Positions 173 to 19,054 of a stretch of DNA of 40,218 nt are shown here, in pieces (the first letter of the stretch is position 1; each line of letters starts with the position of its first letter). The notes beneath the pieces were generated by a model. The model was not told the origin of the DNA and ran no database searches. It was given only the letters and a program-made list of their open reading frames with translations. The translations under genes and the position numbers were made by a program. The stretch comes from a virus: positions 1 through 40,218 of the IMG/VR virus record IMGVR_UViG_3300009008_000091, one strand, 5' to 3'.

Positions 173-210
173 TTAGTCTTACCTAAGGGGATTAGTCTTA
201 CCTAAGGGGA
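173..210 (+). repeat. Perfect 19-bp tandem repeat (2 copies)
   Basis: TTAGTCTTACCTAAGGGGA occurs at 173-191 and again directly at 192-210 with no gap. The unit ends three bases before the sigma-54 -24 element. The octamer TTACCTAA inside it (179-186, 198-205) recurs inverted at 235-242. About two DNA turns between copies puts both on the same face of the helix, which suits cooperative binding of a regulator. Whether that would be an activator or repressor cannot be seen. Confidence 0.8.
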
Positions 211-229: not shown

Positions 230-251
230 CGTTTTTAGGTAAAAGAGATAC

Positions 252-281
252 TTGACAGAGATATCCAAGGTGTGGTATAAT
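252..281 (+). promoter_or_regulatory. Sigma-70 promoter P1 (extended -10)
   Basis: TTGACA at 252-257 and TATAAT at 276-281 with an 18-base spacer, and a TGG directly before the -10 (extended -10). Start of transcription would be near 288. A short inverted pair GAGATA (258-263) / TATCTC (287-292) brackets the -10. The 12-base core TGTGGTATAATT is identical to that of the promoter at 1939-1968. It drives the 305-1386 genes. Confidence 0.88.
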
Positions 282-304: not shown

Positions 305-373
305 ATGGCTTTTTTGGTCCCCATCGCTATGGCGGTTCTCGGAATTCTAATCGTGAAGAAAGCGAGTAAGTAA
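305..373 (+). CDS. 22-aa single-span membrane miniprotein
   Basis: ATG at 305 follows CAGGAGG with good spacing. The peptide is almost wholly a hydrophobic span (residues 2-17) with a short lysine-rich tail, KKASK, which should lie in the cytoplasm. It is the first gene after promoters P54 and P1. Its stop overlaps the next start as TAATG. The function is unknown; one-span phage peptides act as membrane-potential or exclusion factors in other systems, but no family can be recognised here. Confidence 0.6.
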   Translation: MAFLVPIAMAVLGILIVKKASK

Positions 374-540
374 TGAAGTATTATGTGATCACCTATCGCC
401 CTAAGGGCAAGCAGTTCGACGCAGTGGGCATCGAACTGGTGCGTACGAAGGAAGAAGCTTCGAAGCTGGTCCGTCGCTACGAGGCCAAGGACCACGTGGC
501 TTACGCCATGTACCATTCCGTCTACCTGGAGGACAAGTAA
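373..540 (+). CDS. Hypothetical protein, 55 aa
   Basis: Start is the ATG in a TAATG overlap with the preceding gene, so it is probably translated by coupling. It is a small basic and aromatic protein beginning MKYYVITYRPKG, with an alternating beta-like N-terminus and a helical KEEASKLVRRYEAK centre. This resembles the compact alpha/beta miniproteins common in phage early regions. No motif assigns a function. Confidence 0.7.
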   Translation: MKYYVITYRPKGKQFDAVGIELVRTKEEASKLVRRYEAKDHVAYAMYHSVYLEDK

Positions 541-541
541 C

Positions 542-763
542 ATGAAGGCCACCAAGCACAAAGACGGCACGATCTCGATTCGGATGGAATCCATGGAGGC
601 CGCGGATCTCGTCTACGCGATTCTTTGTGAGAAGTCTTACAATCACGGAAAGCTGAAAACGCAGATCGACAATGATTCTATCCGCGAGGGAGTCTATGGC
701 GCGTATCGCGATTTCATCGATGCCGTACAGTCTACTTCTACTCATGACGGGGAGGATAAATAA
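542..763 (+). CDS. Hypothetical protein, 73 aa
   Basis: Begins one base after the previous stop and uses GGAGG (530s) inside the upstream gene as ribosome-binding site. Predicted as short beta strands (TISIRMESMEAADLVYAIL) followed by a helix. I recognise no family. It sits in the first operon of tiny genes. Confidence 0.7.
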   Translation: MKATKHKDGTISIRMESMEAADLVYAILCEKSYNHGKLKTQIDNDSIREGVYGAYRDFIDAVQSTSTHDGEDK

Positions 764-764
764 C

Positions 765-917
765 ATGAGAGCATGGTTGGTTTATGGCAAGGATGTTGAT
801 GGTCGCTCTATTTTGTGGGACCTCTACATGAGCCGCGAAGATGCCGAGATCCGCAAGATCGATCTCGACTCTAAGGGCTTCGCCCCTATCACCATTCACC
901 CCAGGGATGTGAAGTAA
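765..917 (+). CDS. Hypothetical protein, 50 aa
   Basis: The ATG at 765 is preceded by GGGGAGGATAAATAAC, a strong ribosome-binding site. A longer in-frame reading from 672 overlaps the upstream gene completely and has no such site, so the short form is chosen. It has a beta-rich start (RAWLVYGKDVDG) then SREDAEIRKIDLDSKG, typical of small alpha/beta phage proteins. Function unknown. Confidence 0.7.
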   Translation: MRAWLVYGKDVDGRSILWDLYMSREDAEIRKIDLDSKGFAPITIHPRDVK

Positions 918-1186
918 TGAAGTCGATCCGAGTTTACGTTTTGAGTGGAGTCCCGACCTATTCCGACGAGACTAACCATGTCCCGATCGCGGTCTATGAT
1001 TCCAAAGACGAGGTTAACCGTCGCTATCTGCTGGAGTTGGCCGAGGCGGATTATACCGACATTCGGACTTACTCCGTCATGTCTCATTCCCTGGAGATGC
1101 CCCGCTTCGTGGCCGAGTTGCGGCGTCGGTGGCCCCGTGAACTGGTGGGGCTGGCGCTGCGACTCCAGGAGGCGGAGGTGAAGTGA
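917..1186 (+). CDS. Hypothetical protein, 89 aa
   Basis: Starts in a TAATG overlap with the gene before. N-terminal half is beta-like (MKSIRVYVLSGVP). The C-terminal part is a long helix rich in arginine and leucine (residues 60-88). No recognised domain. Translationally coupled on both sides. Confidence 0.7.
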   Translation: MKSIRVYVLSGVPTYSDETNHVPIAVYDSKDEVNRRYLLELAEADYTDIRTYSVMSHSLEMPRFVAELRRRWPRELVGLALRLQEAEVK

Positions 1187-1386
1187 TGGATTACGGATTG
1201 GATCGTTTTGAGGTTCGTTGCGAGTACAGTGACGATGACGATATTGGATTCCTGGGGACGTTCGATACCCTCACGGATGCCGAAATGTACGCTCTGGATA
1301 TTCGCGAAAACTATGCCAAGCCCGATCTTGAGATCGGGCGCACCTGGACCGTGACTCGCGTTTGGGTTGTGGACCTGCAAAAGTAA
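1186..1386 (+). CDS. Hypothetical protein, 66 aa
   Basis: ATG at 1186 forms a TGATG overlap with the previous stop. A GTG one codon upstream is also possible, but the overlap ATG with GGAGG 11 bases before is preferred. Acidic protein with a DDDD run near residue 17 and a DLEIGRTWTVTRVWVVDLQK end. Last gene of the first operon; a terminator hairpin follows 30 bases later. Confidence 0.7.
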   Translation: MDYGLDRFEVRCEYSDDDDIGFLGTFDTLTDAEMYALDIRENYAKPDLEIGRTWTVTRVWVVDLQK

Positions 1387-1416: not shown

Positions 1417-1447
1417 ACCCCACCCTCAAAAACAAAGAGGGTGGGGT
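1417..1447 (+). terminator. Strong stem-loop terminator of operon 1
   Basis: An 11-base-pair, GC-rich stem pairs ACCCCACCCTC (1417-1427) with GAGGGTGGGGT (1437-1447) around a nine-base A-rich loop. It lies just after the operon's last stop codon. The T tract after the stem is short (TTAAAC), so termination may be partly dependent on other factors. Confidence 0.7.
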
Positions 1448-1509: not shown

Positions 1510-1520
1510 ATGGGACCCAT
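1510..1520. promoter_or_regulatory. Palindrome ATGGGACCCAT, candidate activator site 1
   Basis: ATGGG-A-CCCAT is a perfect dyad about 185 bases upstream of the expected start of the 1679-1695 sigma-54 promoter. Position and symmetry fit an upstream activating sequence for an enhancer-binding protein. Its mate is at 1595-1605. Confidence 0.5.
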
Positions 1521-1594: not shown

Positions 1595-1605
1595 ATGGGT
1601 CCCAT
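1595..1605. promoter_or_regulatory. Palindrome ATGGGTCCCAT, candidate activator site 2
   Basis: Same dyad as at 1510-1520 with the central base complemented. The centres are 85 bases apart, about eight helical turns, so both face the same way. It lies roughly 105 bases upstream of the predicted sigma-54 start near 1705, the usual range for enhancer sites. Confidence 0.5.
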
Positions 1606-1650: not shown

Positions 1651-1666
1651 TGGCATACCTTTTGCT
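1651..1666 (+). promoter_or_regulatory. Second sigma-54-like element (weaker)
   Basis: TGGCATA (1651-1657), CCTT, TTGCT (1662-1666). GG (1652-1653) and GC (1664-1665) are 10 bases apart as required, with CG of the -24 box replaced by TA. It overlaps an AGGTAT (1643-1648) / ATACCT (1655-1660) inverted pair. It is 28 bases upstream of the perfect element and could be a tandem promoter or a holoenzyme decoy. Confidence 0.45.
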
Positions 1667-1678
1667 AAGGGTCTGAGT

Positions 1679-1695
1679 TGGCACGCGACTTGCAA
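1679..1695 (+). promoter_or_regulatory. Sigma-54 (RpoN) promoter element
   Basis: TGGCACG (1679-1685), CGAC, TTGCAA (1690-1695) is a full consensus match with GG-N10-GC spacing. CTAAGGG lies a few bases upstream here (1665-1671), as it does before the element at 213. Transcription would start near 1705, about 30 bases before the ATG at 1735. Confidence 0.75.
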
Positions 1696-1734: not shown

Positions 1735-1917
1735 ATGTTCGACAAATCTTACACCGATGAGGCGGGGGTCCCGAGAGGGGTTCCCGCTGTCGTGTCTGTG
1801 GCCCTCCAGGGGGATTCCAGGAAGGTCCGAGATATCGTCCAGGGGACCCAGGAGATCTTGATGTGTCTCGCACATCACTTTGAGCTACCCGAAAGCTGTT
1901 ACAAGGGTAACAGGTAG
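1735..1917 (+). CDS. 60-aa protein under sigma-54 promoter control
   Basis: ATG at 1735 lies about 30 bases downstream of the expected sigma-54 start, and a separate sigma-70 promoter follows the gene. It is thus the only gene between the two promoters. The ribosome-binding site is only fair (GGAAGG and AAAGG further upstream). Residues 17-50 (VPAVVSVALQGDSRKVRDIV and onward) suggest a helical bundle. No recognised family. Its isolation makes it a candidate regulatory or condition-specific protein. Confidence 0.5.
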   Translation: MFDKSYTDEAGVPRGVPAVVSVALQGDSRKVRDIVQGTQEILMCLAHHFELPESCYKGNR

Positions 1918-1933
1918 GTACTATACAAACGTA

Positions 1934-1954
1934 GGGGGTTGACATCATACCCCC
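1934..1954. promoter_or_regulatory. Operator-like dyad over the -35 box of P2
   Basis: GGGGGT (1934-1939) and ACCCCC (1949-1954) form a six-base inverted repeat whose interior contains the rest of the -35 hexamer. A protein bound here would block sigma-70 polymerase. Inferred from position and symmetry only. Confidence 0.4.
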
Positions 1955-1968
1955 AGATGTGGTATAAT
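1939..1968 (+). promoter_or_regulatory. Sigma-70 promoter P2 (extended -10)
   Basis: TTGACA at 1939-1944, 18-base spacer, TATAAT at 1963-1968 with TGG before it. The core TGTGGTATAATT is identical to promoter P1 at 271-282. Expected start near 1975. It is the evident promoter for the 2014-7101 genes, since no other clear promoter occurs before about 7.1 kb. Confidence 0.88.
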
Positions 1969-7255: not shown

Positions 7256-8798
7256 AAATCGTATGCGCGAGACCATTCGCGAGGAAATCCAGCTAATGAT
7301 GGAAAAGAAGGTTATGGTCCAGAACGCCAAAACGGGAAATACCTACCTCGTTTCTCCCGAAACGGCCAAAAAGGGTATCGCGGATGGCAGATACACCAAG
7401 CCTGGAACCAAGGCATCGATGAAGAACCGCAAACGTGCTCTTTCCGATGATGACCTAAAAGCCTACATCGATAAGAATCCCGATGCTCTGAAGAAGATCA
7501 CGGGTAAGCTCGATGACGAGCCCGATCCCGAAGAAGGTGGTAAGCCCGATATGAAGGCAGTAGAGAAGGCGTATGGTCAGTTATATCAAGCATACGAAGA
7601 GGCAGCTTCTACTGTGTCTGATGTTCCTATTGAAGACACTAAAGTAATGAAGCAGATTAAACAGTTAGTAGCTGACATTTATGGTCAGGATGGTCTTGAG
7701 GCTGAAATGGAAGAAGCACACCTCCGTGACACAGATGAAGGAGATTGGCTTCTTAACGTGATTCAAGGTTATATCGAGGAACCTGGGGGCGAAGAGGGCA
7801 AAAGCGGCGGTGGACTGGATGATAAAAGCGACTTGATGGCTGCTTTAAAATCAGCAAAAGATGAAGATGATATAGCTGACGTTCTTTCTGATATAGCTTA
7901 CCATGCAGGATTCGAAGGAGATTGGGTACTAAACGTTACGGATCGTTGGCTTGAAGATGCTGAAAACCCTAAAGACGCTGTAGAGTTCGTCCACACCTTA
8001 AGCGATAAGTTTGGGTGGTACTCAGAAAACTCTGACCGAGATCTACCTGATATCAATTCGTTTGTTGATGCGTTAAGTAAGACGGGAGGCGTAGAAAAGA
8101 AGAAGTCTAAAGCCGATGATTATGAAGACACCAAGGGTGAGGAAGATAAAACTGGTAAGGGCGTTAATAAAGAAGTAGTCCGCCATGTTGCCGATCTTGC
8201 TGATGAAGCAATTGAAAACTTTTCCGATGAAGAAATCTCCAAAATGACTGGTGGATGGGTTGACTCGAAAGAGGAAGCTATGCGCGTGCATGCTGATTTT
8301 ATGGAGAGGATTCTACCCGCCTTACAGGATGGTGCTAAATTGGACGCCGAAGATGCTGACGTATATGATCTTTTGGCTACCATCACCACCCAATACTCTG
8401 GTTTAGACTCCGAAACTGGTGAGTATGATACGGGAGAGGATGATCCCGATAAGTCTGCTGACGAAACTTACGGCATCAGTGCAGATTACGCTGACGATCT
8501 TGTTAAAAGATGGAACAACGGGAGAAAGCTCGTGTCTGCTGATGTAAAGAAGCTACGCGGATACATGGAAGCTATTGGCATGGAAGACGACTATAACTGG
8601 AACTCCATAACGGGAGTTAGAGACGCTGTCGAGTTTATCCAGAACGAATTCTCCGCTGCTGATGACTATGGGATAGACGAACCTCAGGAACATGATGTGC
8701 CATCTGAAAAAGAGTTGGCCAACGACGAGAATCCCCGTAGGTTTAGGGAGTCTCAGATTCACAATTACACGACCCTCCTAGGCAGGAGGATCAAATAG
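7248..8798 (+). CDS. Large acidic protein of unknown function, 516 aa
   Basis: ATG at 7248 has GGAGG at 7236-7240; a longer reading from 7218 lacks a site. N-terminus is a charged helix (MRETIREEIQLMMEKK) followed by a basic patch to about residue 65, then a very acidic, helical body. Two segments are related: EGDWLLNV near residue 165 and EGDWVLNV near 223. A further echo, DAVEF, occurs near 245 and 463. So the body seems built of repeats of a helical module. Its C-terminus is basic (LLGRRIK). No enzymatic motif. The N-terminal R-x2-IRxEI helix recurs in the protein at 10103. Could be a virion-internal or scaffold-like protein, but this is not shown. Confidence 0.75.
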   Translation: MNKNRMRETIREEIQLMMEKKVMVQNAKTGNTYLVSPETAKKGIADGRYTKPGTKASMKNRKRALSDDDLKAYIDKNPDALKKITGKLDDEPDPEEGGKPDMKAVEKAYGQLYQAYEEAASTVSDVPIEDTKVMKQIKQLVADIYGQDGLEAEMEEAHLRDTDEGDWLLNVIQGYIEEPGGEEGKSGGGLDDKSDLMAALKSAKDEDDIADVLSDIAYHAGFEGDWVLNVTDRWLEDAENPKDAVEFVHTLSDKFGWYSENSDRDLPDINSFVDALSKTGGVEKKKSKADDYEDTKGEEDKTGKGVNKEVVRHVADLADEAIENFSDEEISKMTGGWVDSKEEAMRVHADFMERILPALQDGAKLDAEDADVYDLLATITTQYSGLDSETGEYDTGEDDPDKSADETYGISADYADDLVKRWNNGRKLVSADVKKLRGYMEAIGMEDDYNWNSITGVRDAVEFIQNEFSAADDYGIDEPQEHDVPSEKELANDENPRRFRESQIHNYTTLLGRRIK

Positions 8799-9193
8799 TG
8801 GATGCTCAGATGAAAAGACTGAGGGAACTGACGGAGCAGCTTTCGACCCATCCGTACGAATCCCACCAGCATGAGGAACAAATCCACGATTTCAATGGGA
8901 TGGTAAGACTTCGTGGTTTGTTCTCAAAGGATGAGGTGGGGGTAGCGTACGTGTTCATGGCGCAGGGATCTAACTTCCCAGAACACGCCCACGTTGCCGC
9001 AGAATGGTTGATCGTCTATAAGGGAGAAGTTAAATTCACGACGAGAGATGATTCGGGCAACGAAACAGACACGCTTGCTAAAACAGGGGATTTCATATAC
9101 CTCAATAGAGAAGTCGGGCATTCAGCCGAAGCTTTGGTTGACTCCTGGCTTATAGCTGTCACTATACCATTTGAAGAGGGGCTGCCTAAATGA
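8798..9193 (+). CDS. Cupin-fold metal-binding protein, 131 aa (GTG start)
   Basis: GTG at 8798 overlaps the preceding TAG; AGGAGG lies in the overlap. The two cupin motifs are visible: HAHVAAEWLIVYKGEV (H63, H65, E69 as metal ligands) and GDFIYLNREVGHSAEA (G97, H108). This is a single-domain beta-barrel cupin; relatives include isomerases, dioxygenases and sugar-binding proteins. The N-terminal 30 residues are an extra helix. Closest context is the glycan cluster 2.3 kb away, so a role in sugar modification is possible. Substrate unknown. Confidence 0.85.
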   Translation: MDAQMKRLRELTEQLSTHPYESHQHEEQIHDFNGMVRLRGLFSKDEVGVAYVFMAQGSNFPEHAHVAAEWLIVYKGEVKFTTRDDSGNETDTLAKTGDFIYLNREVGHSAEALVDSWLIAVTIPFEEGLPK

Positions 9194-9465
9194 CACTGGA
9201 CACAAAAAATGGGTGGGGGGAATGGAAAAATCTAGTATTAGATAAGCTCGAAACATCCCAAGCCGCAATTAAAAAACTAGAAGACAAAGTTGACAACAAC
9301 AAAGAGGACGTGGTAAATAAAATCGCGGAACTTAAAACTGACATCGCCATGATCAAAACTGAGATGAAGACTAGAGCTTCGTTTACTGGGGCGATATCAG
9401 GTGGTATCATTTCGATACTTATAATGATCGTAGGTGCTATAATCCTGTCAACCATGGGGATTTAA
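9190..9465 (+). CDS. Coiled-coil protein with C-terminal membrane anchor (XhlA/holin-like)
   Basis: 91 residues: a coiled coil over about 17-60 (heptads in AAIKKLEDKVDNNKEDVV and IAELKTDIAMIKTEM) followed by one membrane span at 68-90 (GAISGGIISILIMIVGAIIL). This layout is that of XhlA-type haemolysin/holin accessory proteins found in phage lysis cassettes. No endolysin is adjacent, so a lysis role is only suggested. Four-base overlap with the cupin gene. Confidence 0.7.
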   Translation: MTLDTKNGWGEWKNLVLDKLETSQAAIKKLEDKVDNNKEDVVNKIAELKTDIAMIKTEMKTRASFTGAISGGIISILIMIVGAIILSTMGI

Positions 9466-9466
9466 G

Positions 9467-9757
9467 ATGAACAAAAAGATGCTACAAGAAATCGAGGATG
9501 CGGTTTCTCAATTAGACGAAGTTGGCGGTGGTCATAGGCTTACCGTGCTAGTCAAGCAGGCAGAAAAGGACACAGATAAGTTGATGAAAGGGCTGAAACA
9601 CCTTCACGCTGCGCTTCGGTCTTCTTCAAAAGGAAAGGCTCTTTCACGAAACGACGCGAAGCAGTTGTGGAATATTGTGACATTAGTGGCTTCAGGCGTA
9701 GAAAAGTTAGACGATGATCTTAGTAAGTTGGTTATTAAACTGAATGAACTCCTTTAG
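9467..9757 (+). CDS. Hypothetical helical protein, 96 aa
   Basis: Begins right after the membrane-anchor gene. Helical throughout, mixed charge, with leucines spaced as in a coiled coil (LMKGLKHLHAALR, LDDDLSKLVIKLNELL). Weak RBS (GGGGAT), so probably coupled to the upstream gene and perhaps a partner of it. No family recognised. Confidence 0.7.
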   Translation: MNKKMLQEIEDAVSQLDEVGGGHRLTVLVKQAEKDTDKLMKGLKHLHAALRSSSKGKALSRNDAKQLWNIVTLVASGVEKLDDDLSKLVIKLNELL

Positions 9758-9769
9758 AAAGGATAAGTT

Positions 9770-9946
9770 GTGACGAAACAAAAATGGGTTACTGTTAAAT
9801 GTGTAGCCATAGACACAGCCAAAGTTTGTGAAAAGCTAACCGATGATGGTTACTGGATTTATGGCGTTTGGCCTACTATTCAAGATGACGCCGAGCAATT
9901 TTTCCAGATTTTAGCTTGTAAGGCTAAGGAGGATTCCGTTGAGTAA
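9770..9946 (+). CDS. Hypothetical protein, 58 aa (GTG start)
   Basis: GTG at 9770 follows AGAAAGGATAAGTT. Small protein with three cysteines (C11, C20, C50) and aromatic residues. No usable ATG exists in the frame. Overlaps the next gene by eight bases. Confidence 0.6.
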   Translation: MTKQKWVTVKCVAIDTAKVCEKLTDDGYWIYGVWPTIQDDAEQFFQILACKAKEDSVE

Positions 9947-10106
9947 GGATTATCGTTACCTCGATTTTGATGAGGAAGACGAGCTTGAAGTAGAAGAGTT
10001 TATGTCGGATCGAGATAAGAACAAACTCCAAAAGAGCAATAGAAAGACCAAAGTCGCCAATCAACGGAAGCGAAATCGCCAAAGGGTGAATGATGAGGAA
10101 AGATGA
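9939..10106 (+). CDS. Hypothetical charged protein, 55 aa (TTG start)
   Basis: TTG at 9939 is preceded by TAAGGAGGATTCCG, a near-perfect site, and the only in-frame ATG lies after the first 21 codons. The first half is acidic (DFDEEDELEVEEF), the second strongly basic (KSNRKTKVANQRKRNRQR), a split-charge linker. It may be disordered or bind nucleic acid with its basic half. Overlaps the next start. Confidence 0.6.
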   Translation: MSKDYRYLDFDEEDELEVEEFMSDRDKNKLQKSNRKTKVANQRKRNRQRVNDEER

Positions 10107-10921
10107 GTCCTTTTAAGTCGAAAGCCCAACGTCGTTTCATGTACGCTCGTCATCCCGAGATGGCGAAGAAGTGGGAAAAAGAGACTCCCAAGGATGCCAA
10201 GCTTCCCGAAAAGGTAAAAGAGGAAGCTATCGGCAACGGATGGGAAGTTGAGTTTAAGTCCGCTTTCAATCGTAAGATCAAAAGGAACGGTGGAAAGATA
10301 GACCTTGGTGGTTACTGGTTCGTCGCCGAACCCGAGAAGGAAAACGACAGGGAGTGGTTAGCGTTCAGTGTTGTCAATAAAAAGACCAAAAAGCCACTTC
10401 GTTTTTCTGGTACGTATAAAGCCAACGCAGATGGGGCGGTCAAGTTCGTCAAAGCCGTAATGAAACAAAACCGAATCAAAGACTTGAGGGAAAATGTGAA
10501 ACTTAATGAATCCGAATTCCGTCAGATGGTGAGAAAAGAAATCGAGTCTATTTTATCTGAAGGCATTAAAAAGGGGTCATACACATACAGTATAAAAGCG
10601 AAAAGTATAAAAAAGAGATACAAAGGTGAGGACAACGAATACTTTGTTATGTGTGCATACCTAGGGGGGAATCAGGATCTATTGAAAAAACTCCACGCAT
10701 CAAGAAGTCATATTTGGAAAACATCTCTTGGTTCTAGTTTAACGAATTCCGCTAAAAAACTAGGAATCTCGCTTAAGATACATGAAGCGGACATGATGAT
10801 GTACCCTGGAAAACCAGTGTACTCTGTTGGTGTTACTGCCATTGGTGATGAGAAAAAGATCAAGAGTCTATTTTCAAAAAAGCACCCCATTATAGTCAAG
10901 CTTTTAAGAGATATAAAATAA
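10103..10921 (+). CDS. Phage protein with N-terminal 'KSKAQRRFMYARHPEMAKKW' domain, 272 aa
   Basis: Residues 3-28 are a common stand-alone phage miniprotein of unknown function, here fused to more sequence. Residues 47-125 form a second basic alpha/beta part. A helix EFRQMVRKEIESILSE (about 138-153) resembles the N-terminus of the 516-aa protein. From about residue 155 onwards the DNA becomes clearly more AT-rich and the codon choice changes, so the C-terminal 115 residues may have come from elsewhere. Function unknown. Confidence 0.75.
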   Translation: MSPFKSKAQRRFMYARHPEMAKKWEKETPKDAKLPEKVKEEAIGNGWEVEFKSAFNRKIKRNGGKIDLGGYWFVAEPEKENDREWLAFSVVNKKTKKPLRFSGTYKANADGAVKFVKAVMKQNRIKDLRENVKLNESEFRQMVRKEIESILSEGIKKGSYTYSIKAKSIKKRYKGEDNEYFVMCAYLGGNQDLLKKLHASRSHIWKTSLGSSLTNSAKKLGISLKIHEADMMMYPGKPVYSVGVTAIGDEKKIKSLFSKKHPIIVKLLRDIK

Positions 10922-11457
10922 TGGCAAACAGAAAAAAGATAGCTCCCATTCGATGGAAAGCTACTGGTCCTACCCGTCCAAAGGTTGTTAAAAAGCCCAC
11001 TTCCGTTAAGGCTTCAAGAGAACACACGAAGCCCGAAAAGAAAGAACGGCCTTCTGGCGACCGCAAGTTAGCGGAAGTTAGAAGGCCAGGCTATCTTAGT
11101 CCAGGTAGGATCGTTAAGTTCGGATACAGAAGGCCATGGGCGAATGACCCCAACCCCGTAGTGTTCGTCCTATACGCCACACGAAAAGCAGAAGCCGACG
11201 CATACTTAGAGGGCATCAACGTTAGGTATATGTCGGCTACCTATTGGATGGCACTAGAAGCATTCGTGGAGGGGTACCCTAATGCAGACGGCGAATACTT
11301 ATACTACCTAATCAAGGGTTCTGCCCCCTATCTACTTAAAGCTTACAGAAGGTACTTGTACAAGAGGATGAGTAGTCCAGTGAAGGACGCAAGCATCCTT
11401 GCCGAGAAGAAAGCAATTGTTCGTAAGACCCCGAGGGGTGGAAAGAGAGCTAGTTAA
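10921..11457 (+). CDS. Basic hypothetical protein, 178 aa
   Basis: TAATG overlaps on both ends. Residues 1-55 are lysine/arginine/proline-rich and probably disordered. Residues 60-150 hold a compact part with LSPGRIVKFGYRRPW, then PVVFVLYA, then EGINVRYM. This G-x-x-x-F-x-Y...P-V...G-N-x-x-Y pattern is typical of a conserved small protein of T4-like phages of unknown role. I consider membership likely but unproven. Confidence 0.7.
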   Translation: MANRKKIAPIRWKATGPTRPKVVKKPTSVKASREHTKPEKKERPSGDRKLAEVRRPGYLSPGRIVKFGYRRPWANDPNPVVFVLYATRKAEADAYLEGINVRYMSATYWMALEAFVEGYPNADGEYLYYLIKGSAPYLLKAYRRYLYKRMSSPVKDASILAEKKAIVRKTPRGGKRAS

Positions 11458-12236
11458 TGAGTGACGTTATGTTTCACATCGTGATCCCAGGACGTAATCA
11501 CAGTCAGTGGATCGGAAAAAACCTGGATGTTTTAATTAATCAAACGCACAAAGACTGGAAAGCCATCGTCATGATCGATGGAGAAACTAAAGATAATGAT
11601 GAAGTGTATGAAATCGCTAAACGGTATACTAAGCGAGATGATAGACTTAGTGTGTGTTATGAACCAGAACGAAGATGGGGGCTTGAGAACATCATCAATG
11701 GTTTCATGTTTCTTGGAGCCCTTGATTCCCATCCCAATGATGTCCTTATGGAGATCGATGGGGACGACTGGCTAAACGGCACCACGGTTCTAGAGAATCT
11801 CGCCAAACTCTACGAGGATCCCGACATCTGGCTTACCTACGGATCCCATAAAAGAACCACAGGACAGGAAGTGCGATGCAAGCCCTACCCCGATAGGATC
11901 TGGGAGAGGAAGTCTCACAGGGCTTACCCGTGGTGGGCAAGCCAGCTTCGTACCTTCAGACGGTTCCTATGGGACTCTATCAAGGACGAGGATCTCAGGG
12001 ACGAAAACGGGAATTACTTCAAGAATGGGTGGGACATCTCTTTCATGATGCCTATGCTGGACATGTGCGAACAGCACAATGTGGTAGCTGTCCAGGATCT
12101 GATTTATACCTACAACATTCATCAAAACTGTAACTTCATGCTGGACAACGGCGAATCTCAGAGGGCCAATGAGTGGCTGATTCGTGGAAGAGAAAAGTAT
12201 CCCTACTATAAGGACATGGACGTTCCTTCCCCCTAA
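11457..12236 (+). CDS. Glycosyltransferase family 2
   Basis: 259 residues, GT-A fold. The nucleotide-sugar site is visible: VIPGRNHSQWIGKNLDVL at the start, VMIDG near 40, and the metal-binding D101-G-D103-D104-W. It would transfer a sugar from an NDP-sugar to an acceptor; donor and acceptor are unknown. It is a paralogue of the gene at 12831 (shared DGDDW, [HY]PW-[IW]ASxLxxF segment and [IV]YxYN near the end). The two are separated only by the HNH gene. Its stop lies inside a hairpin. Confidence 0.88.
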   Translation: MSDVMFHIVIPGRNHSQWIGKNLDVLINQTHKDWKAIVMIDGETKDNDEVYEIAKRYTKRDDRLSVCYEPERRWGLENIINGFMFLGALDSHPNDVLMEIDGDDWLNGTTVLENLAKLYEDPDIWLTYGSHKRTTGQEVRCKPYPDRIWERKSHRAYPWWASQLRTFRRFLWDSIKDEDLRDENGNYFKNGWDISFMMPMLDMCEQHNVVAVQDLIYTYNIHQNCNFMLDNGESQRANEWLIRGREKYPYYKDMDVPSP

Positions 12237-12255
12237 AACTATTTATTTTAGGGGG
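12229..12255 (+). other. RNA hairpin over the HNH gene's ribosome-binding site
   Basis: CCCCCTAAAA (12229-12238) pairs with TTTTAGGGGG (12246-12255), a perfect ten-base-pair stem with a seven-base loop. The left arm carries the GT2 stop codon. The right arm carries the only purine-rich ribosome-binding site (GGGGGTGG) for the ATG at 12263. In long transcripts the arm would be paired and the HNH gene poorly translated. No T-tract follows, so simple termination is less likely. Confidence 0.65.
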
Positions 12256-12262
12256 TGGTACT

Positions 12263-12844
12263 ATGAAATGTACTGTGTGTAAACTAGATAAAGACGATTC
12301 AGAATTCACTAATCCCAAGAAATGGAAAATCTGTCGTTCTTGTAAGTCAGAGAAAGACAAAGCGTACTATCAAGCCAACAAAGAAAAAATAAAAAAACAG
12401 GTAAAAAAGTACGCAAAGGAAAACTCTGAAAAGATAAAAGAGTACCATAAAAAGAAACGGCAAAGGTACAAAGAGAATTCAGAGTGGTTAGAAAAAAGAA
12501 GAGAGACATGCAGAGAGTGGGCTAGGCAACACCGAAAGAACAATCCTGAAAAAGCTAGACAATCTGGCAGGAAAGCCGCTAAGGAAAGAAGAGCTAGGAT
12601 AGCGGCTGCATTAACCGAACCCTGGACTCATGAAGAGATTGCTGCTTCGGGAACTGGTTTTTGTCCTTATTGTAAAAAATGGATCGGGTTGATTTATGAT
12701 TCAACGGTTATGCATGTGGACCACATAATCCCCTTGTCTAGAGGGGGCAATGACACGATAGAGAATCTAGAAACTGTGTGCTGTGAGTGCAACGGATCTA
12801 AGTGGACTAAAACAAAGGAAGAGTTTTTAAATGAGCGTGGTTAA
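12263..12844 (+). CDS. HNH homing-type endonuclease
   Basis: 193 residues. N-terminal zinc pairs C3-T-V-C6 and C24-R-S-C27. A long basic helical arm follows (about 30-115, rich in K, R, E and Y) and probably grips DNA. The C-terminal HNH nuclease has C134-P-Y-C137, H151-V-D153-H154, N168 and C173/C176 zinc ligands, ending NGSKW. Cuts DNA, typically at a site in phages lacking the insertion, and so spreads itself. It lies between two paralogous GT2 genes and overlaps the next start by 14 bases. Free-standing, not in an intron. Confidence 0.9.
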   Translation: MKCTVCKLDKDDSEFTNPKKWKICRSCKSEKDKAYYQANKEKIKKQVKKYAKENSEKIKEYHKKKRQRYKENSEWLEKRRETCREWARQHRKNNPEKARQSGRKAAKERRARIAAALTEPWTHEEIAASGTGFCPYCKKWIGLIYDSTVMHVDHIIPLSRGGNDTIENLETVCCECNGSKWTKTKEEFLNERG

Positions 12845-13628
12845 CTATGTGGCACCATGGAGAGGCGATTTTAAAACGATTGAGCGTTTTATCCAGTCTC
12901 TATTCGTACAGACTTCAGATATGTGGATCGCCCATATCGTAGATGATGCTTCTGATATGAGTGACGAGGATCGGAAGAAGCTCCACACTCTCGTGGACCA
13001 AAACCCAAGAATCTATCTGTATGAGAACTCCGAAAGGCTGGGTCCCCTACACAACGTTTACAACATCATCATGAATCAGATCGATGGAGACGACACTATC
13101 ATCGCCCAAGCTGACGGGGATGACTGGCTCCTGCCCGACGCCACGATCATAACCGAAAAGCTCCACAAAAGCTTCGATGTTGTCTATGGTCAGTTCGTCC
13201 GCTATGCTCCAAGCGAATCGTGGCACGGGGCTTTAGGTCAGTGTGCCGATTACCCCTCAATCGTCAAGGCGATGAACACCTATGAAGATCATCCTTGGAT
13301 CGCTTCCCACCTGAAATCGTTCAAACGTAAGCTATTCATGCAGATTCCGTATGAAATGTTGATCGACCCTCGCAATGGGGGGTTCTGGAACAGTAGCTAT
13401 GATAAGGCGTATATGCTCCCAATACTGAAATTGACTCAGCCATCCAAGATATGGTTTAATGAGATACCCATCTACGTCTACAACATGGAGGGGTGGGGCG
13501 TCACGGATGACCACATCAAACCCGCTGTGCAAAAAGAAACGTCTAGGTTTATCATTGAGTCGGTTAAACTTCACATGAATGAAAAGGTTCGTTGGCATGA
13601 AAATAAGCTTCCAGGGAGTCCAGCCTAA
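12831..13628 (+). CDS. Glycosyltransferase family 2
   Basis: 265 residues, paralogue of 11457-12236. Nucleotide-sugar region VNYVAPWRGDFKTIERFIQ, IVDDAS near 37-41, and D95-G-D97-D98-W as metal site. The ATG at 12831 lies within the HNH gene's end, with AAGGAAGAG upstream. Its 3' end overlaps the following GT4 gene by about 30 bases. Sugar and acceptor unknown. Confidence 0.87.
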   Translation: MSVVNYVAPWRGDFKTIERFIQSLFVQTSDMWIAHIVDDASDMSDEDRKKLHTLVDQNPRIYLYENSERLGPLHNVYNIIMNQIDGDDTIIAQADGDDWLLPDATIITEKLHKSFDVVYGQFVRYAPSESWHGALGQCADYPSIVKAMNTYEDHPWIASHLKSFKRKLFMQIPYEMLIDPRNGGFWNSSYDKAYMLPILKLTQPSKIWFNEIPIYVYNMEGWGVTDDHIKPAVQKETSRFIIESVKLHMNEKVRWHENKLPGSPA

Positions 13629-14577
13629 CCTCCTAAAGGGACCCTCTCTTTTTGCGGATCGTCTAAGAAAACAGTTCGAAGAGATGGGACATAGTGTCAC
13701 TTATCTAGACACCAATAGTGTCGATGTGAGTCTATGCTTCATAAAGTCGTGGTTTCCCCGACATCCAGGAGTCAAATATGTCCAACGGTTGGATGGAATG
13801 TACATCAATACCAAGCCCAACGTTGAGGGACTTACCCACGAAACGGGAAACATCGACTTGTCTAGGACCTACGGGGAAGTCGATGGTCACATCTTCCAGT
13901 CCCACTTCAACCACGACTTAATCCATCGCCATCTTGGTGTATCAGACAAACCCAATCGGGTTATCTCCAACGGAACCGAGCTTCCGATTTCAACTCAAAA
14001 ACATAGGCTGAACGCTTTCAAAGAGTATGATTACGTCTTCTTTGCTGCTTCGAATTGGAAGGGGCGTCCCAATAAGAGGTATGAGGATAACGTTAGGACG
14101 TTTTCGGCCTTACGAAAGATGATGCCCGATATGAAGATGGTGCTGGCTACCGCAGGAGAAACAGGTGGGCATCTTGAGAGGCGCGGAGTCATCGCTCTCA
14201 ATCGTTCTATTGATCAGCAGGTACTGACTAATCTGTACAAATCTGCTGATATGTTCTTCCATTTATCTTTCATTGATCACTGTCCCAATGCAGTAGTTGA
14301 AGCTCTGTCCCATGGATTGCCCGTTCTGTGTTCCAGTTCGGGAGGTACATCGGAGCTTTTACCCGAAGATGGTGGGGTAATTCACAAGGAAAACTGGACC
14401 ATGGACGTTCAGGATATTGGGAGTCCTCCCAAGGTGGACCACGAGAAAGTCGCTGCTCAGGTTAAAGAGTACATCGAGAAAACCAGTCTAGAAAGGATCG
14501 ATCGGCCTTTCTGGATAGACATCAGATCAACCGCCGCTAGGTACATTGAGTTTTTTGAGGAGGTTCTAAGTGAATAA
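13597..14577 (+). CDS. Glycosyltransferase family 4-like
   Basis: 326 residues from the ATG at 13597 (GAAAAGG before it; an ATG at 13579 would add six residues without a better site). GT-B fold: N-terminal Rossmann half with glycine-poor start (KISFQGVQPNLLKGPSLFA), and C-terminal donor half with CPNAVVEALSHGLPVL and SSSGGTSELL, the E-x7-E type region that grips the NDP-sugar. Probably a retaining transferase. Unlike the GT2 pair, it needs no metal. Ends eight bases inside the next gene. Confidence 0.85.
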   Translation: MKISFQGVQPNLLKGPSLFADRLRKQFEEMGHSVTYLDTNSVDVSLCFIKSWFPRHPGVKYVQRLDGMYINTKPNVEGLTHETGNIDLSRTYGEVDGHIFQSHFNHDLIHRHLGVSDKPNRVISNGTELPISTQKHRLNAFKEYDYVFFAASNWKGRPNKRYEDNVRTFSALRKMMPDMKMVLATAGETGGHLERRGVIALNRSIDQQVLTNLYKSADMFFHLSFIDHCPNAVVEALSHGLPVLCSSSGGTSELLPEDGGVIHKENWTMDVQDIGSPPKVDHEKVAAQVKEYIEKTSLERIDRPFWIDIRSTAARYIEFFEEVLSE

Positions 14578-15292
14578 GATGACCCTGCAAGAGTATTTCG
14601 ATTCTGTCGGGTACAACTGGAAAGACCATGAGGTTTTGGTTTCTGCCATTTGCAAACTGACCAAGACCAGAGTTAGGCCACCAGGGAAACGATCTAGATA
14701 CGGTACAGAGCAGCAGCACCTAATCAATGCTCTGGCTATCGAGCGTAACGTGAAGAGGTTCTTTGAGATCGGAACGGGAAGAGGTACCACGTCCTTCATT
14801 TTGTCCCGTCTTCCTCAGATAGAGCACGTTACCACCATTGATATCCTACCGTTCGACCAGAAGAGAAAAACGGCGGTGAACTATGTGGAAGCCCACATGT
14901 CTAACAAGGATTTCTACGATGCCATCCCTTTTAAAGAAAAGCTGAACATCGAGTTTATCACATCGAACTCTAAAGATTGGGACCCATCAGGGTACAAGGG
15001 TCAATTCGACATGGCTTTCATAGACGGAAATCATGACGACCCAAAAACAATCATGCGCGATTTCTACACATCGGAATTTGTTGTTTCCGAAAAAGGGATC
15101 ATCTTGTTTGATGACTACAATTGTGAATGGGGTTCTGGAGTTACTAAAGTGGTGGATGATGTGGTCGCTGAGGGTGATTGGGACGCCGTACTTGTTGAGT
15201 TTAGGGGCCACTTGTTCGAAGACATCGAACAGCAGCGAGGACCAGAAAAAGATCAGGGACTAGTGATCCTAAGGAGAAAGAATGTCGAATAA
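14570..15292 (+). CDS. SAM-dependent methyltransferase (Methyltransf_24-like)
   Basis: 240 residues; GTG at 14570 with GGAGG 11 bases before. Motif I is E66-I-G-T-G-R-G-T, the SAM-binding glycine loop. The acidic motif II follows as TTIDILPFD, and DMAFIDGNHDDPKTIMRDF is the cation-dependent O-methyltransferase-like motif with D and N ligands. A sugar O-methyltransferase is the most likely role, given its glycosyltransferase neighbours. Confidence 0.85.
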   Translation: MNKMTLQEYFDSVGYNWKDHEVLVSAICKLTKTRVRPPGKRSRYGTEQQHLINALAIERNVKRFFEIGTGRGTTSFILSRLPQIEHVTTIDILPFDQKRKTAVNYVEAHMSNKDFYDAIPFKEKLNIEFITSNSKDWDPSGYKGQFDMAFIDGNHDDPKTIMRDFYTSEFVVSEKGIILFDDYNCEWGSGVTKVVDDVVAEGDWDAVLVEFRGHLFEDIEQQRGPEKDQGLVILRRKNVE

Positions 15293-16301
15293 CATCAAAA
15301 TCCATGTACAGGACGCCGCTGAAGAATGGATCGTTGACAGAATCGCGGAAGAATATAGGGATGAAACAAGTTTTAGCGTTGTGTCGGATCCCAGAGATGC
15401 CGATATCATTTGGTTGATGGCTCCGTACATGTGGTACAAAATACGTCCAGAGGTTCTTGAAGAAAAGTTCGTTATCGCTACCCACCACCATATCGTACCC
15501 GAGAAGTTTGTCGGTTCTGATTTCTTGAATCGCGATCGGGATGCGCACATTGATGCTTACTTTACTTATGACCCCTTTGCCCTGAGAGTAATAGAGAAGC
15601 TATTGCCCGAAAAGAAGGTTTTGCTCCAGAATTATTGGTGTCAGCCGCACTTTTGGAAGAAGTGGGGTGCGGAGAAGTTGGCTGGGTACATTAAGAATAG
15701 TGATAAGCTTAAATCTTTAATGCCTGTCCTTGCAGAAGAAGAAACGATGGTATTCGGATCCTTCCAAAGGGACACCGAAGGGAAGACGGGTGGTCCGAAG
15801 CTTGAAAAGGGTCCTGATCGTTTAGTTGCTATCATGAAGGCTTTGAAGGATCAGGGAGAGGATGTTCACGTTGTTTTGGCAGGGTACAGACGTGACTGGA
15901 TTATCGAACAGTTTGAAAAAGAAGGGATCCCGTATTCCTATTTCGAGAAGTGTTCCCCAAATGATCTGCTGGCCCTTTATAACGCCATCGATATGTACCT
16001 CGTTACTAGCAGGTACGAGGGAGGACCCCAGGCCATTTTTGAAGCTGCTTTGGTTCAAAAGCCTATCTTGAGTACCCGATGTGGGTCCGCACCCAGAGTG
16101 TTGCACCCGTTCAGCATCTGTCAAGACGAAGAAGAGATGGCGAATAGGTTGTATAGTCTTGAACAGAAAGATATCGCATTGATGATGAAGAAGAATTTCG
16201 AATCCGCGATTAGTTTTGAGTACAAAAAGATGATTAAGTCTTATGATGAAGTGATAAGGGAGTTGTACACAGCATGGCTATCGGAGAAGAACAATGAGTA
16301 A
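15282..16301 (+). CDS. Glycosyltransferase family 4-like
   Basis: 339 residues, RBS AAGGAGAAAGA. The donor-binding half holds LVTSRYEGGPQAIFEAALVQKP and STRCGSAP, a typical GT4 donor site including E-x7-E-like residues. The N-terminal half has DIIWLMAPYMWYK and a THHHIVPEKF segment like those of trehalose/capsular GT4s. Overlaps by ten bases upstream and eight downstream. Confidence 0.84.
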   Translation: MSNNIKIHVQDAAEEWIVDRIAEEYRDETSFSVVSDPRDADIIWLMAPYMWYKIRPEVLEEKFVIATHHHIVPEKFVGSDFLNRDRDAHIDAYFTYDPFALRVIEKLLPEKKVLLQNYWCQPHFWKKWGAEKLAGYIKNSDKLKSLMPVLAEEETMVFGSFQRDTEGKTGGPKLEKGPDRLVAIMKALKDQGEDVHVVLAGYRRDWIIEQFEKEGIPYSYFEKCSPNDLLALYNAIDMYLVTSRYEGGPQAIFEAALVQKPILSTRCGSAPRVLHPFSICQDEEEMANRLYSLEQKDIALMMKKNFESAISFEYKKMIKSYDEVIRELYTAWLSEKNNE

Positions 16302-17082
16302 TTGGTATGATGATGTATGCGAGTACTACAACATAACCCCTGAGGAAGCCTTAAGGTTAGGTACCAGGGGGACCTATAGGGAGTTTACTCCTGGATCCAT
16401 TACGTGCGATCGACTAGAGGGGGATGCCGCACAGATCGACAATGTATGGGCGGCGAAAAAACGAGTAACGCAAGAGGACATCTTTTCTTTCTACAAAGAG
16501 TGTGGGTCTTTTTCCTCTTTAAGACAATGCGTAAGGCATAAAGATTCTTCGTACCTGCCCATATATGACAGGACATTGAGAGACGGGATGACCATATGTG
16601 AGTATGGGTGTGGGTCTGCTCCCATCCTGACCGAACTTGCTAATTCAGACATCATTAAGAGGTATAATGGCGTGACCTTTGTGATATCTGATGTGGACTG
16701 TGAACCTTTTGAGTTTGCAAAATGGAGACTGAAGAAAGCGATACAAAATAATAAACTGGATATTAAACTGGAACCCCATCCAATAGAACCCAACAAACTC
16801 CCCAAATACAGGAACAGACTAGATTTAGTTTTTTGCTACGAAGTTATGGAACACGTTCCGTCCCCGTTGAAAGCGGTCGCCAATCTCTATATCCAAATGT
16901 CCTCCAAAGCTGTGTACATAGAAAACTTTGTTAATCACCATGACGGTTACAACCATGATGGTCCAGATCTTTTGTCTGCTAAAAAAGAAAGATCAGCGTA
17001 CTTGTCATTACTAAAAAGTAAATTCACTCTCGTATATGGGGATTTCGGGGATGGCAACCGAATTTGGAGAAGGAATGATTAA
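16294..17082 (+). CDS. SAM-dependent methyltransferase
   Basis: 262 residues. SAM loop E103-Y-G-C-G-S-A-P110, acidic end of strand 2 at ISDVD, and the post-motif VMEHVPSPLKAV typical of class I methyltransferases. The N-terminal 95 residues are an extra helical domain. No target-recognition sequence of DNA methyltransferases is present, so a small-molecule or sugar target is likely. Confidence 0.8.
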   Translation: MSNWYDDVCEYYNITPEEALRLGTRGTYREFTPGSITCDRLEGDAAQIDNVWAAKKRVTQEDIFSFYKECGSFSSLRQCVRHKDSSYLPIYDRTLRDGMTICEYGCGSAPILTELANSDIIKRYNGVTFVISDVDCEPFEFAKWRLKKAIQNNKLDIKLEPHPIEPNKLPKYRNRLDLVFCYEVMEHVPSPLKAVANLYIQMSSKAVYIENFVNHHDGYNHDGPDLLSAKKERSAYLSLLKSKFTLVYGDFGDGNRIWRRND

Positions 17083-18016
17083 GCCAAAAGTCCACATCGC
17101 AGTAGACTTCGTTGACGGCCCGTGGGGCGGTGGGAATCAGTTCCTTAAAGCTTTATACAAGTCTTTACAAAAGAGGGGTATAGAGGTGTCCACCGATTCT
17201 GACTTTGATGCTGAGGTTGTCCTTATTAACTCTTTTAACTCTAAGAGTATTGATAGGATCGATAAGTGGAAAAAGGATGGAAAAAAGATCGTACACCGCA
17301 TCGATGGACCGATCCAGCTTGTAAGGGGAAAAGATAAAGAAAAAGATGATTTCATCTTTGAGATCAATAAGAAGGCTGATTGGACTATCTTTCAATCTCG
17401 TTGGAGTTGTAAAGAAAATAAAAGATTGGGGTGGAGAGGGAGTAACCATTGTGTAATCCTCAATGGTACTGATTTAGACATCTTCACCCCAAAACTTCGA
17501 CAAGACCCAACGAGTATTCGAAGTACAAAGGTAATAGGATCTAGTTGGAGTACAAACCCCAAGAAAGGATTACAATTTTGGATAGACTTAGACACTGACT
17601 TGGGGTGGAGACAGATGATGGGCCAATCTGTTCCCATAGTCACGTTTGTGGGGAGGGTAGACTATCATTTTCGAAATATTAAACACGTGAAAGCTGTGTC
17701 TTCAAAGGAATTAGCAGATCTATATGATCAACACCACGTATATGTGCACCCCACTATAGACGAACCGTGTTCAAATGCCTTGATAGAGGCCCAAGCTTGT
17801 GGATTACCTACGATTGTTAATGACAGTGGGAGTAACTCTGAAGTCTTGGGACGTGGCGGGGTTGCAGTAAAATCTTTGGACCCCACTTTGTTTTTCGCCG
17901 CCTTGGGCCGTGTATTAGAACAATACCAAAGGTTCGTTCGAAACGTAGAAATCAGAAACATCGACAACGTGTGTTCCCAATATCTGGCTGTGTTTGAAGA
18001 GGTGCTAAATGGATAG
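17075..18016 (+). CDS. Glycosyltransferase family 4-like
   Basis: 313 residues from ATG 17075, which sits right after GGAGAAGGA; a start at 17036 lacks a site. KVHIAVDFVDGPWGGGNQFLKAL is the GT-B N-terminal glycine loop. DEPCSNALIEAQACGLPTIV and DSGSNSEVL form the donor site. VHRIDGP and FQSRW resemble the segments in the GT4 at 13597 (VQRLDGM, FQSHF), so the two are related copies. Confidence 0.85.
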   Translation: MIKPKVHIAVDFVDGPWGGGNQFLKALYKSLQKRGIEVSTDSDFDAEVVLINSFNSKSIDRIDKWKKDGKKIVHRIDGPIQLVRGKDKEKDDFIFEINKKADWTIFQSRWSCKENKRLGWRGSNHCVILNGTDLDIFTPKLRQDPTSIRSTKVIGSSWSTNPKKGLQFWIDLDTDLGWRQMMGQSVPIVTFVGRVDYHFRNIKHVKAVSSKELADLYDQHHVYVHPTIDEPCSNALIEAQACGLPTIVNDSGSNSEVLGRGGVAVKSLDPTLFFAALGRVLEQYQRFVRNVEIRNIDNVCSQYLAVFEEVLNG

Positions 18017-18587
18017 ACTTAAAGAGTTGTTAGACTTAGTAAAAGATAAACCCGACTATAAAACTACCACTACATCTGCTCTTAAGCTTCAGTTGTATTC
18101 TTACATCGTAAAAAACGGGTATAGAAACATTTTGGAGCTAGGGTGTGATACGGGCAACACTACGGTGTTCCTTGCAGAAGCAGCGAGAGTGACAAAAGGA
18201 ATGGTTTTTGCTGTCGATGTTGATTCTGTTAGGATTTCTAAAGCTAAAGAACTATTGGAGAAAGCGGGGTTGGCCGATTATGTTAGGTTCATGGAACTAG
18301 ATCTATATGATGAACGAACAGCCCCTTTAGTCAATTGTGCTGATGGTATGGAGTTTGTTTTTATTGACGTCAACCACGAACATAGATATGTGAAGATGGA
18401 CATAGAAAGGTGTTATCGGAATGGTGCTTCTCCCGATATCGTGTTACACGATTACGGTCTTATTGGGGCTGGGGTAAAAAGCGCCATTACAGAGTGTGAG
18501 TGTGTGGTCAGACAATATATGGGCTTAGAGAAAAACTGGAACCCGAAAAAGAACAACACCGATGATTGGGAGGCGGCGTTGATATGA
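18009..18587 (+). CDS. SAM-dependent methyltransferase (Methyltransf_24-like)
   Basis: 192 residues. SAM loop E43-L-G-C-D-T-G-N, AVDVD as motif II, and FVFIDVNHEHRYVKMDI as the metal-site helix, with DIVLHDYG following. Similar plan to the methyltransferase at 14570. Probably methylates a sugar or an amine-linked group. Four-base overlap with the GNAT gene. Confidence 0.82.
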   Translation: MDRLKELLDLVKDKPDYKTTTTSALKLQLYSYIVKNGYRNILELGCDTGNTTVFLAEAARVTKGMVFAVDVDSVRISKAKELLEKAGLADYVRFMELDLYDERTAPLVNCADGMEFVFIDVNHEHRYVKMDIERCYRNGASPDIVLHDYGLIGAGVKSAITECECVVRQYMGLEKNWNPKKNNTDDWEAALI

Positions 18588-19054
18588 AAGAAACGGTTTT
18601 TAGGTTTGTTAAAATGGAAAAAGAGCATCTGCCGTTTGTTGTTTCCGTTAGGAACAGTTGTAGATACGTTCTTCATGACGGTAGAGAGTTTTCAGAATCA
18701 GACACAAAAGAGTGGTTTACTACTAAAAACCCGAATTGGTGGATGATAGAAAAAAGCGGGGACATTATAGGGTATTTTAGGACATCTAAATGGGACTATG
18801 AAAATGGGTCTGTTTTTATAGGTGCTGATTTAGCCTTTGAGTGGAGGGGGAAGGGGATAGGTACGAAGATATACCCTCTTTTTATGAGCATGATTAATGA
18901 CGAATACGGAATTTCAGACTTCTATGTTAGAGTCTTCCACACAAATTCTGCGGCAAAACGTGTGTATGAGAAAGTTGGATTTAAGCCTGTACAAGAAACT
19001 AATAACGACATACTGATGAGGAAAACGCATGGAAAAAGTAATACCTCTGTTTAA
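18584..19054 (+). CDS. GNAT N-acetyltransferase
   Basis: 156 residues from ATG 18584 (GGGAGGCGG before it). The acetyl-CoA site is E-W-R-G-K-G-I-G-T (motif A, R/Q-x-x-G-x-G/A) followed by SAAKRVYEKVGFKPV, the motif B helix of the fold. It transfers acetyl or another acyl group to an amine. Placed directly before a sugar aminotransferase with 26 bases of overlap, it most likely acylates the amino sugar that enzyme makes, as in FdtC/WbdR-like pairs. Inference from context. Confidence 0.87.
   Translation: MKETVFRFVKMEKEHLPFVVSVRNSCRYVLHDGREFSESDTKEWFTTKNPNWWMIEKSGDIIGYFRTSKWDYENGSVFIGADLAFEWRGKGIGTKIYPLFMSMINDEYGISDFYVRVFHTNSAAKRVYEKVGFKPVQETNNDILMRKTHGKSNTSV

Follow-up and report, generated by a model that had tools for sequence, protein, structure and literature searches.

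Two perfect sigma-54 elements and one near-perfect partner are located in the early intergenic DNA of the window, the 40,218-nucleotide stretch of viral DNA that was analysed as a whole, and arrays of the same element recur in the control regions of other phages. Probably these are high-affinity docking sites for the host sigma-54 polymerase, which head two early transcription units and control early genes. Binding of sigma-54 to the elements can be predicted with considerable confidence, and for the element at 1679 the chance of being a true promoter appears about even.

The window and its phage

The terminase, portal, major head and tail sheath genes of this 40,218-bp IMG/VR record belong to T4-like families, indicating that the window is a T4-like phage contig; the terminase, portal and sheath genes also show that it is not related to Yuavirus. 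Its closest terminases in IMG/VR are 43-47% identical and those of the closest isolates (Flavobacterium phage immuto and Microcystis phage Mel-JY01) 41-43% identical. No near relatives of the window were found in INPHARED, and a search of its first 8 kb against Rfam gave no match. The left 7 kb carries small early ORFs on the + strand, among which known families are absent. Ahead of the first control region, positions 28-129 encode a 33-residue ORF rich in cysteine (CETC, CPKC, NNCC). Between the early and the structural genes, a block at 8798-20231 contains genes for cupin, glycosyltransferase, methyltransferase, acetyltransferase and DegT aminotransferase, resembling a sugar-modification cluster, together with an HNH endonuclease (12263-12844).

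Sigma-54 elements in the early region

Within the 40-kb window the perfect element occurs only at 213 and 1679, and the relaxed motif adds only the site at 1651 (Table 1). All three are in early intergenic DNA on the + strand and are oriented toward genes, and both groups lie 5' of same-strand early ORFs, as expected for promoters; no perfect element was detected in the window in the reversed orientation. The GG and GC dinucleotides of TGGCACR-N4-TTGCW are 10 bp apart in the window elements. The preliminary description had reported a perfect element with a weaker partner 28 bases upstream, and had placed the full TGGCACG and TTGCAA combination outside coding DNA; both statements agree with the present mapping, the partner being on the same strand. 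The pair was also said to occupy the only other intergenic region of the early part, which is correct as to its location and incorrect as to exclusivity, because 1918-2013 forms a third early intergenic stretch. The sites at 1651 and 1679 constitute a phage sigma-54-site array as defined here, with at least two intergenic TGGCAYR-N4-TTGCW sites spaced 25-29 bp apart.

Table 1. Positions of the predicted control elements and genes in the early region of the window
Feature	Position	Strand	Remarks
Two abutting 19-bp direct repeats, TTAGTCTTACCTAAGGGGA	173..210	+	Directly 5' of the 213 element; candidate regulator site
Perfect sigma-54 element, TGGCACG-N4-TTGCAA	213..229	+	Predicted start ~239
TTAGGTAA, inverted copy of TTACCTAA (179, 198)	235..242		Between sigma-54 element and sigma-70 promoter
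Perfect extended sigma-70 promoter, TTGACA-N18-TATAAT	252..281	+	Ends GTGGTATAAT
First early operon, small ORFs	305..1386	+	No known families
GC-rich 11-bp hairpin, weak T tail	1417..1447	+	Probable terminator of the first operon
Palindrome ATGGGACCCAT	1510..1520		Candidate activator/repressor site, ~185-195 bp 5' of predicted start 1705
Palindrome ATGGGTCCCAT, second copy	1595..1605		85 bp from the first; ~100-110 bp 5' of predicted start
Near-perfect sigma-54 element TGGCATACCTTTTGCT, TGGCAYR-N4-TTGCW	1651..1666	+	28 bp 5' of the 1679 element
Perfect sigma-54 element TGGCACGCGACTTGCAA	1679..1695	+	Predicted start ~1705
60-codon ORF	1735..1917	+	Coding bias like early neighbours, non-decisive
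Second perfect sigma-70 promoter, TTGACA-N18-TATAAT	1939..1968	+	Ends GTGGTATAAT

The possibility that the sites are chance matches or functionless relics is very remote. There are only three of them, on a 40-kb fragment without close relatives, but in 400 first-order Markov simulations a window contained on average 0.0075 perfect and 0.025 relaxed sites, far below the 2 and 3 observed. The same arrangement is moreover seen again in numerous phages and has been preserved among Pakpunavirus isolates despite varying spacer bases. In a scan with a weight matrix of phage array sites, the elements at 213, 1679 and 1651 scored 25.2, 24.4 and 20.5 bits, respectively, and the next-best site of the window, in coding DNA, scored 7.7 bits, a gap that is partly built in because the sites used for the matrix had been selected by the core motif. 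With a softer matrix from the textbook consensus, 1679 (20.9) and 213 (18.7) were still at the top, but a coding site at 19346 (14.3) outranked 1651 (12.3), so that 1651 is ordinary on that scale. The search for equally good sites in coding DNA, proposed beforehand as a means of refutation, thus leaves the elements at 213 and 1679 intact; on 1651 considered by itself it has no bearing either way.

Recurrence in other viruses

Tandem sigma-54-like pairs with a period of 25-29 bp were detected in at least 120 stretches of IMG/VR, this being the main tandem period (114 contigs), whereas an IMG/VR-wide control with a 5-base spacer gave 2. No near-perfect tandem pair with this spacing was found in 369 gammaproteobacterial genomes. 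Convergent pairs likewise numbered at least 120 in IMG/VR, whereas 257 Gb of bacterial genomes gave 6. These six were considered as a clue to prophages or hosts and were set aside, as most look like terminator-type or chance palindromes; the exception, a Methylovulum MAG contig (L442:6776-6915), carries repeated TGGCACTG palindromes that are similar to the sigma-54 motif without matching it. Of 85 matches to the perfect motif 21 were intergenic, whereas the reversed motif gave 1 intergenic match in 80 (p = 4e-6). The ORF caller used is crude and undercounts intergenic sites, which affects all the site-in-gap statistics given here.

Many contigs with the perfect motif carry tandem or head-to-head clusters, with a maximum of 14 sites in 6.5 kb. 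In a 147-kb phage contig (L128, 1260-6430), 14 sigma-54-like sites are distributed over about 5 kb with imperfect copies interspersed. Locus L203 (418-596) has four consecutive head-to-head pairs, each TGGCACG-N4-TTGCA-N2/3-TGCAA-N4-CGTGCCA, and L415 (1964-2252) has ten same-direction sites between seemingly convergent operons, the downstream side being gene-free. A TTATGTAAA-like box, possibly an activator or operator site, is found just 5' of each sigma-54-like site in L100, L107, L162, L185 and L194, and 3' of the arrays in L338, L342, L359, L364 and others a conserved GTTGACAAGTGTGTGG is followed by TTATGTTGG.

The combination with a sigma-70 promoter also recurs. When TGGCACG-N4-TTGC followed, after a gap of 10-40 bp, by a consensus sigma-70 promoter was scanned for, seven IMG/VR contigs were matched, with a chance estimate of well under one; the layout of the window, an element about 40-70 bp 5' of a strong sigma-70 promoter, is shared with seven other contigs and with PAK_P3, whose sigma-70 promoter on the 3' side is an annotated one. 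Such sites were absent from 80 loci of distant T4-like terminase relatives, and two arrays compared with INPHARED by BLAST gave no match.

Identity of the motif

The tandem-pair loci, 926 kb in total, contain TGGCAYR-Nx-TTGCW 516 times at x = 4 and 0-4 times at each other x between 0 and 9, but this set had been pre-selected for x = 4, so that the independent test of the spacer is the IMG/VR-wide comparison of 4 and 5 bases (at least 120 versus 2). The unselected flanks match the known preferences of sigma-54 (A, R, R, Y upstream; Y at -1 = 0.87). Together with the strict 4-base spacer, the location exclusively 5' of early genes and the many counterparts in other phages, cultured Pseudomonas phages among them, they support well the identification as sigma-54 elements made in the preliminary description.

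It is unlikely that the motif represents the operator of another phage or host DNA-binding protein, sigma-54-like by coincidence, for which the head-to-head pairs would be dimer sites. The fixed spacings, 20-21 bp for convergent and 26 bp for divergent pairs, do resemble operator geometry. However, the free 4-base spacer, the Y, R and W positions and the flanking preferences all fit sigma-54, the motif is common to contigs from many metagenomes, no phage-encoded sigma-54 DNA-binding domain was detected in 47 array-bearing records, and P. aeruginosa, the host of the cultured carriers, has rpoN. An RNA hairpin or terminator as the function of the convergent pairs was rejected, because their 4-base spacers are non-complementary (0.95 matches of 4, compared with 1.28 expected from shuffled pairing). 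The SrpA palindrome of phage K5 was also rejected, its sequence being different.

Predicted modes of regulation at the two loci

Exactly two perfect TTGACA-N18-TATAAT promoters exist in the window (252 and 1939), both with the same end sequence and both with a sigma-54 locus on the 5' side. The -35 box of the first (252-257) is expected to fall within the footprint of a polymerase at 213, and the sigma-54 and sigma-70 enzymes should therefore exclude each other. A polymerase docked at 213 would thus overlap the promoter at 252 with one of two outcomes: either it would add an activator-gated start of its own near 239, or it would bar the sigma-70 enzyme from the promoter for as long as sigma-54 stays in place.

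At the second locus, the ORF at 1735 is, as had been noted beforehand, the only gene between the pair of elements and the following sigma-70 promoter. A search for its relatives found none, its ribosome site is ordinary, and the predicted start at 1705 is 30 nt upstream. An rpoN-dependent transcript would be expected to begin about 12 bp past the GC of an element. The sites at 1651 and 1679, being 28 bp apart, cannot be occupied by polymerase simultaneously. The polymerase may wait at 1679 as a closed complex, the site at 1651 helping or backing up, until an active host enhancer-binding protein, possibly on the twin ATGGGWCCCAT palindromes, allows a start near 1705. These palindromes (1510 and 1595), of which the window has no further exact copy, are at about -190 and -105 relative to 1705, where an activator might bind (enhancer sites are expected 80-200 bp upstream), and are candidate activator or repressor sites. 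The geometry, the upstream hairpin and the twin palindromes make it plausible that a separate inducible transcript begins at about 1705.

The lack of shared occupancy, the failure to find an activator gene and the directionless array sites nevertheless make binding without transcription a serious alternative. A search of 20 larger ORFs of the window against Pfam found no activator gene. Among the 47 array-bearing records no enhancer-binding protein was convincing and a single weak activator-domain match was obtained, with a model that also matches control genomes of sigma-54-lacking groups. Locus L448 (in the 216-kb record of L147) contains an 884-aa phage ORF with a weak match to the sigma-54-activator (AAA+) domain by this unspecific model.

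In this alternative, the elements are not promoters; polymerase would be bound without transcription and would either occlude the sigma-70 promoters or titrate sigma-54. Genome replication might even multiply the sites until they deplete the limited amount of sigma-54 and thereby weaken the host sigma-54 regulon. We regard this as possible but rather doubtful for the window. In its favor, array sites point with or against the neighbouring genes at random (50:55), and convergent pairs at 20-21 bp leave no room for two polymerases. Array neighbours are nearly all of full consensus, 9 imperfect copies having been seen. Arrays prefer divergent early control regions: 82 of 143 are in divergent gaps, whereas among large gaps in general 271 of 1155 are divergent. 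Strong sigma-70 promoters flank the arrays on the far side and are oriented outwards. The failure to find an activator gene alongside the sites in the 47 records also agrees with it, as does the repression by sigma-54 at an overlapping promoter mentioned in PMC4591121. Single sites in co-directional gaps, on the other hand, lean to the promoter-like orientation (44:22 with versus against genes, p = 0.009, a value which, like the other p-values, overstates the evidence because sites within an array and contigs within a lineage are not independent). The mere three sites of the window all face genes, titration by three sites would require a high phage copy number, and a host enhancer-binding protein might activate them, with which the sequence is compatible. 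Since 213 resembles the single sites and the 1651/1679 pair is a minimal tandem facing its gene, activator-gated promoters are favored here, with occlusion of the sigma-70 promoter by the 213 site as a possible addition, and trapping of the polymerase is the main rival.

Possible role of the arrays

Sigma-54 governs nitrogen use, motility and stress in bacteria. If the sites bind sigma-54, early gene control of many environmental phages is linked to that host factor. We tentatively consider, as a minority view of our own, that the early control regions of many phages hold purpose-built, high-affinity sigma-54 arrays that capture host polymerase as a switch or a sink. Depending on the cell state, the early sigma-70 promoters would then be restrained or the host sigma-54 regulon starved, and within such a reading the window would be a minimal version of these arrays. 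If so, whether phages exploit or disarm sigma-54 is a directly testable question, since two carriers of the sites, PAK_P1 and PAK_P3, can be grown on laboratory Pseudomonas, for which rpoN deletions exist.

Comparison with known systems

Among cultured phages, between 5 and 9 relaxed matches were counted in each of PAK_P1, PaoP5, Ps12 and Ab1 (in Ab1 some are duplicated at both genome ends) and two in PAK_P3; one of the loci collected (L208) belongs to Pseudomonas phage vB_PaeM_C2-10_Ab02. No TGGCAYR-N4-TTGCW site was found in YuA, M6 and the Roseobacter, Pelagibacter, SAR116, Vibrio, Flavobacterium and Microcystis phages tested. Three Pakpunavirus genomes share a long intergenic region in which sigma-70 promoters reading outwards enclose a convergent pair. 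The core of this pair is intact and its spacer bases vary, although the region as a whole is 93% identical. In PAK_P3 a divergent pair is located immediately 5' of an annotated sigma-70 promoter. The PAK_P1-like and PAK_P3-like phages (Pakpunavirus, Nankokuvirus) thus resemble the window in that strong sigma-70 promoters of a long intergenic region are accompanied by sigma-54-like elements, which may be single, convergent or divergent. For the early region of these phages, 41-nt sigma-70 repeats are reported in PMC4309531; the accessible portions of this paper and of PMC4933390, which describe sigma-70 repeats, do not mention sigma-54 sites.

Use of sigma-54 by phages is called rare in PMC5053324, in which YuA is given as strictly dependent on host sigma-54. 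For YuA (Mesyanzhinovviridae, Yuavirus), fragments with the -24/-12 consensus are annotated as having high promoter activity. The principle of a phage gene programme relying on host sigma-54 is therefore already known and would be shared by the window. The -24/-12 promoters of YuA, however, sit among structural genes and are off the strict consensus, whereas the window, of another lineage and layout, has near-perfect early sites, paired or beside sigma-70 promoters. Arrays of such sites in phages are, provisionally, apparently unreported: no account was found in the open-access literature, subscription journals being mostly outside the coverage.

In bacterial tandem sigma-54/sigma-70 promoters such as glnA, both starts serve one operon and are close together. 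The window is similar in that a predicted sigma-54 start is near a sigma-70 start, but the bacterial sites are usually single, less perfect and require a mapped enhancer. According to PMC4591121, ChIP-seq in E. coli indicated that sigma-54 holoenzyme is bound at mostly inert sites and that, where these are intergenic, it competes with other sigma factors, and the studies cited therein describe repression where a sigma-54 site overlaps another promoter. Such inert or repressor sites of E. coli are on the host chromosome and two thirds of them are intragenic, in contrast to the phage sites, which are viral, intergenic and paired or clustered.
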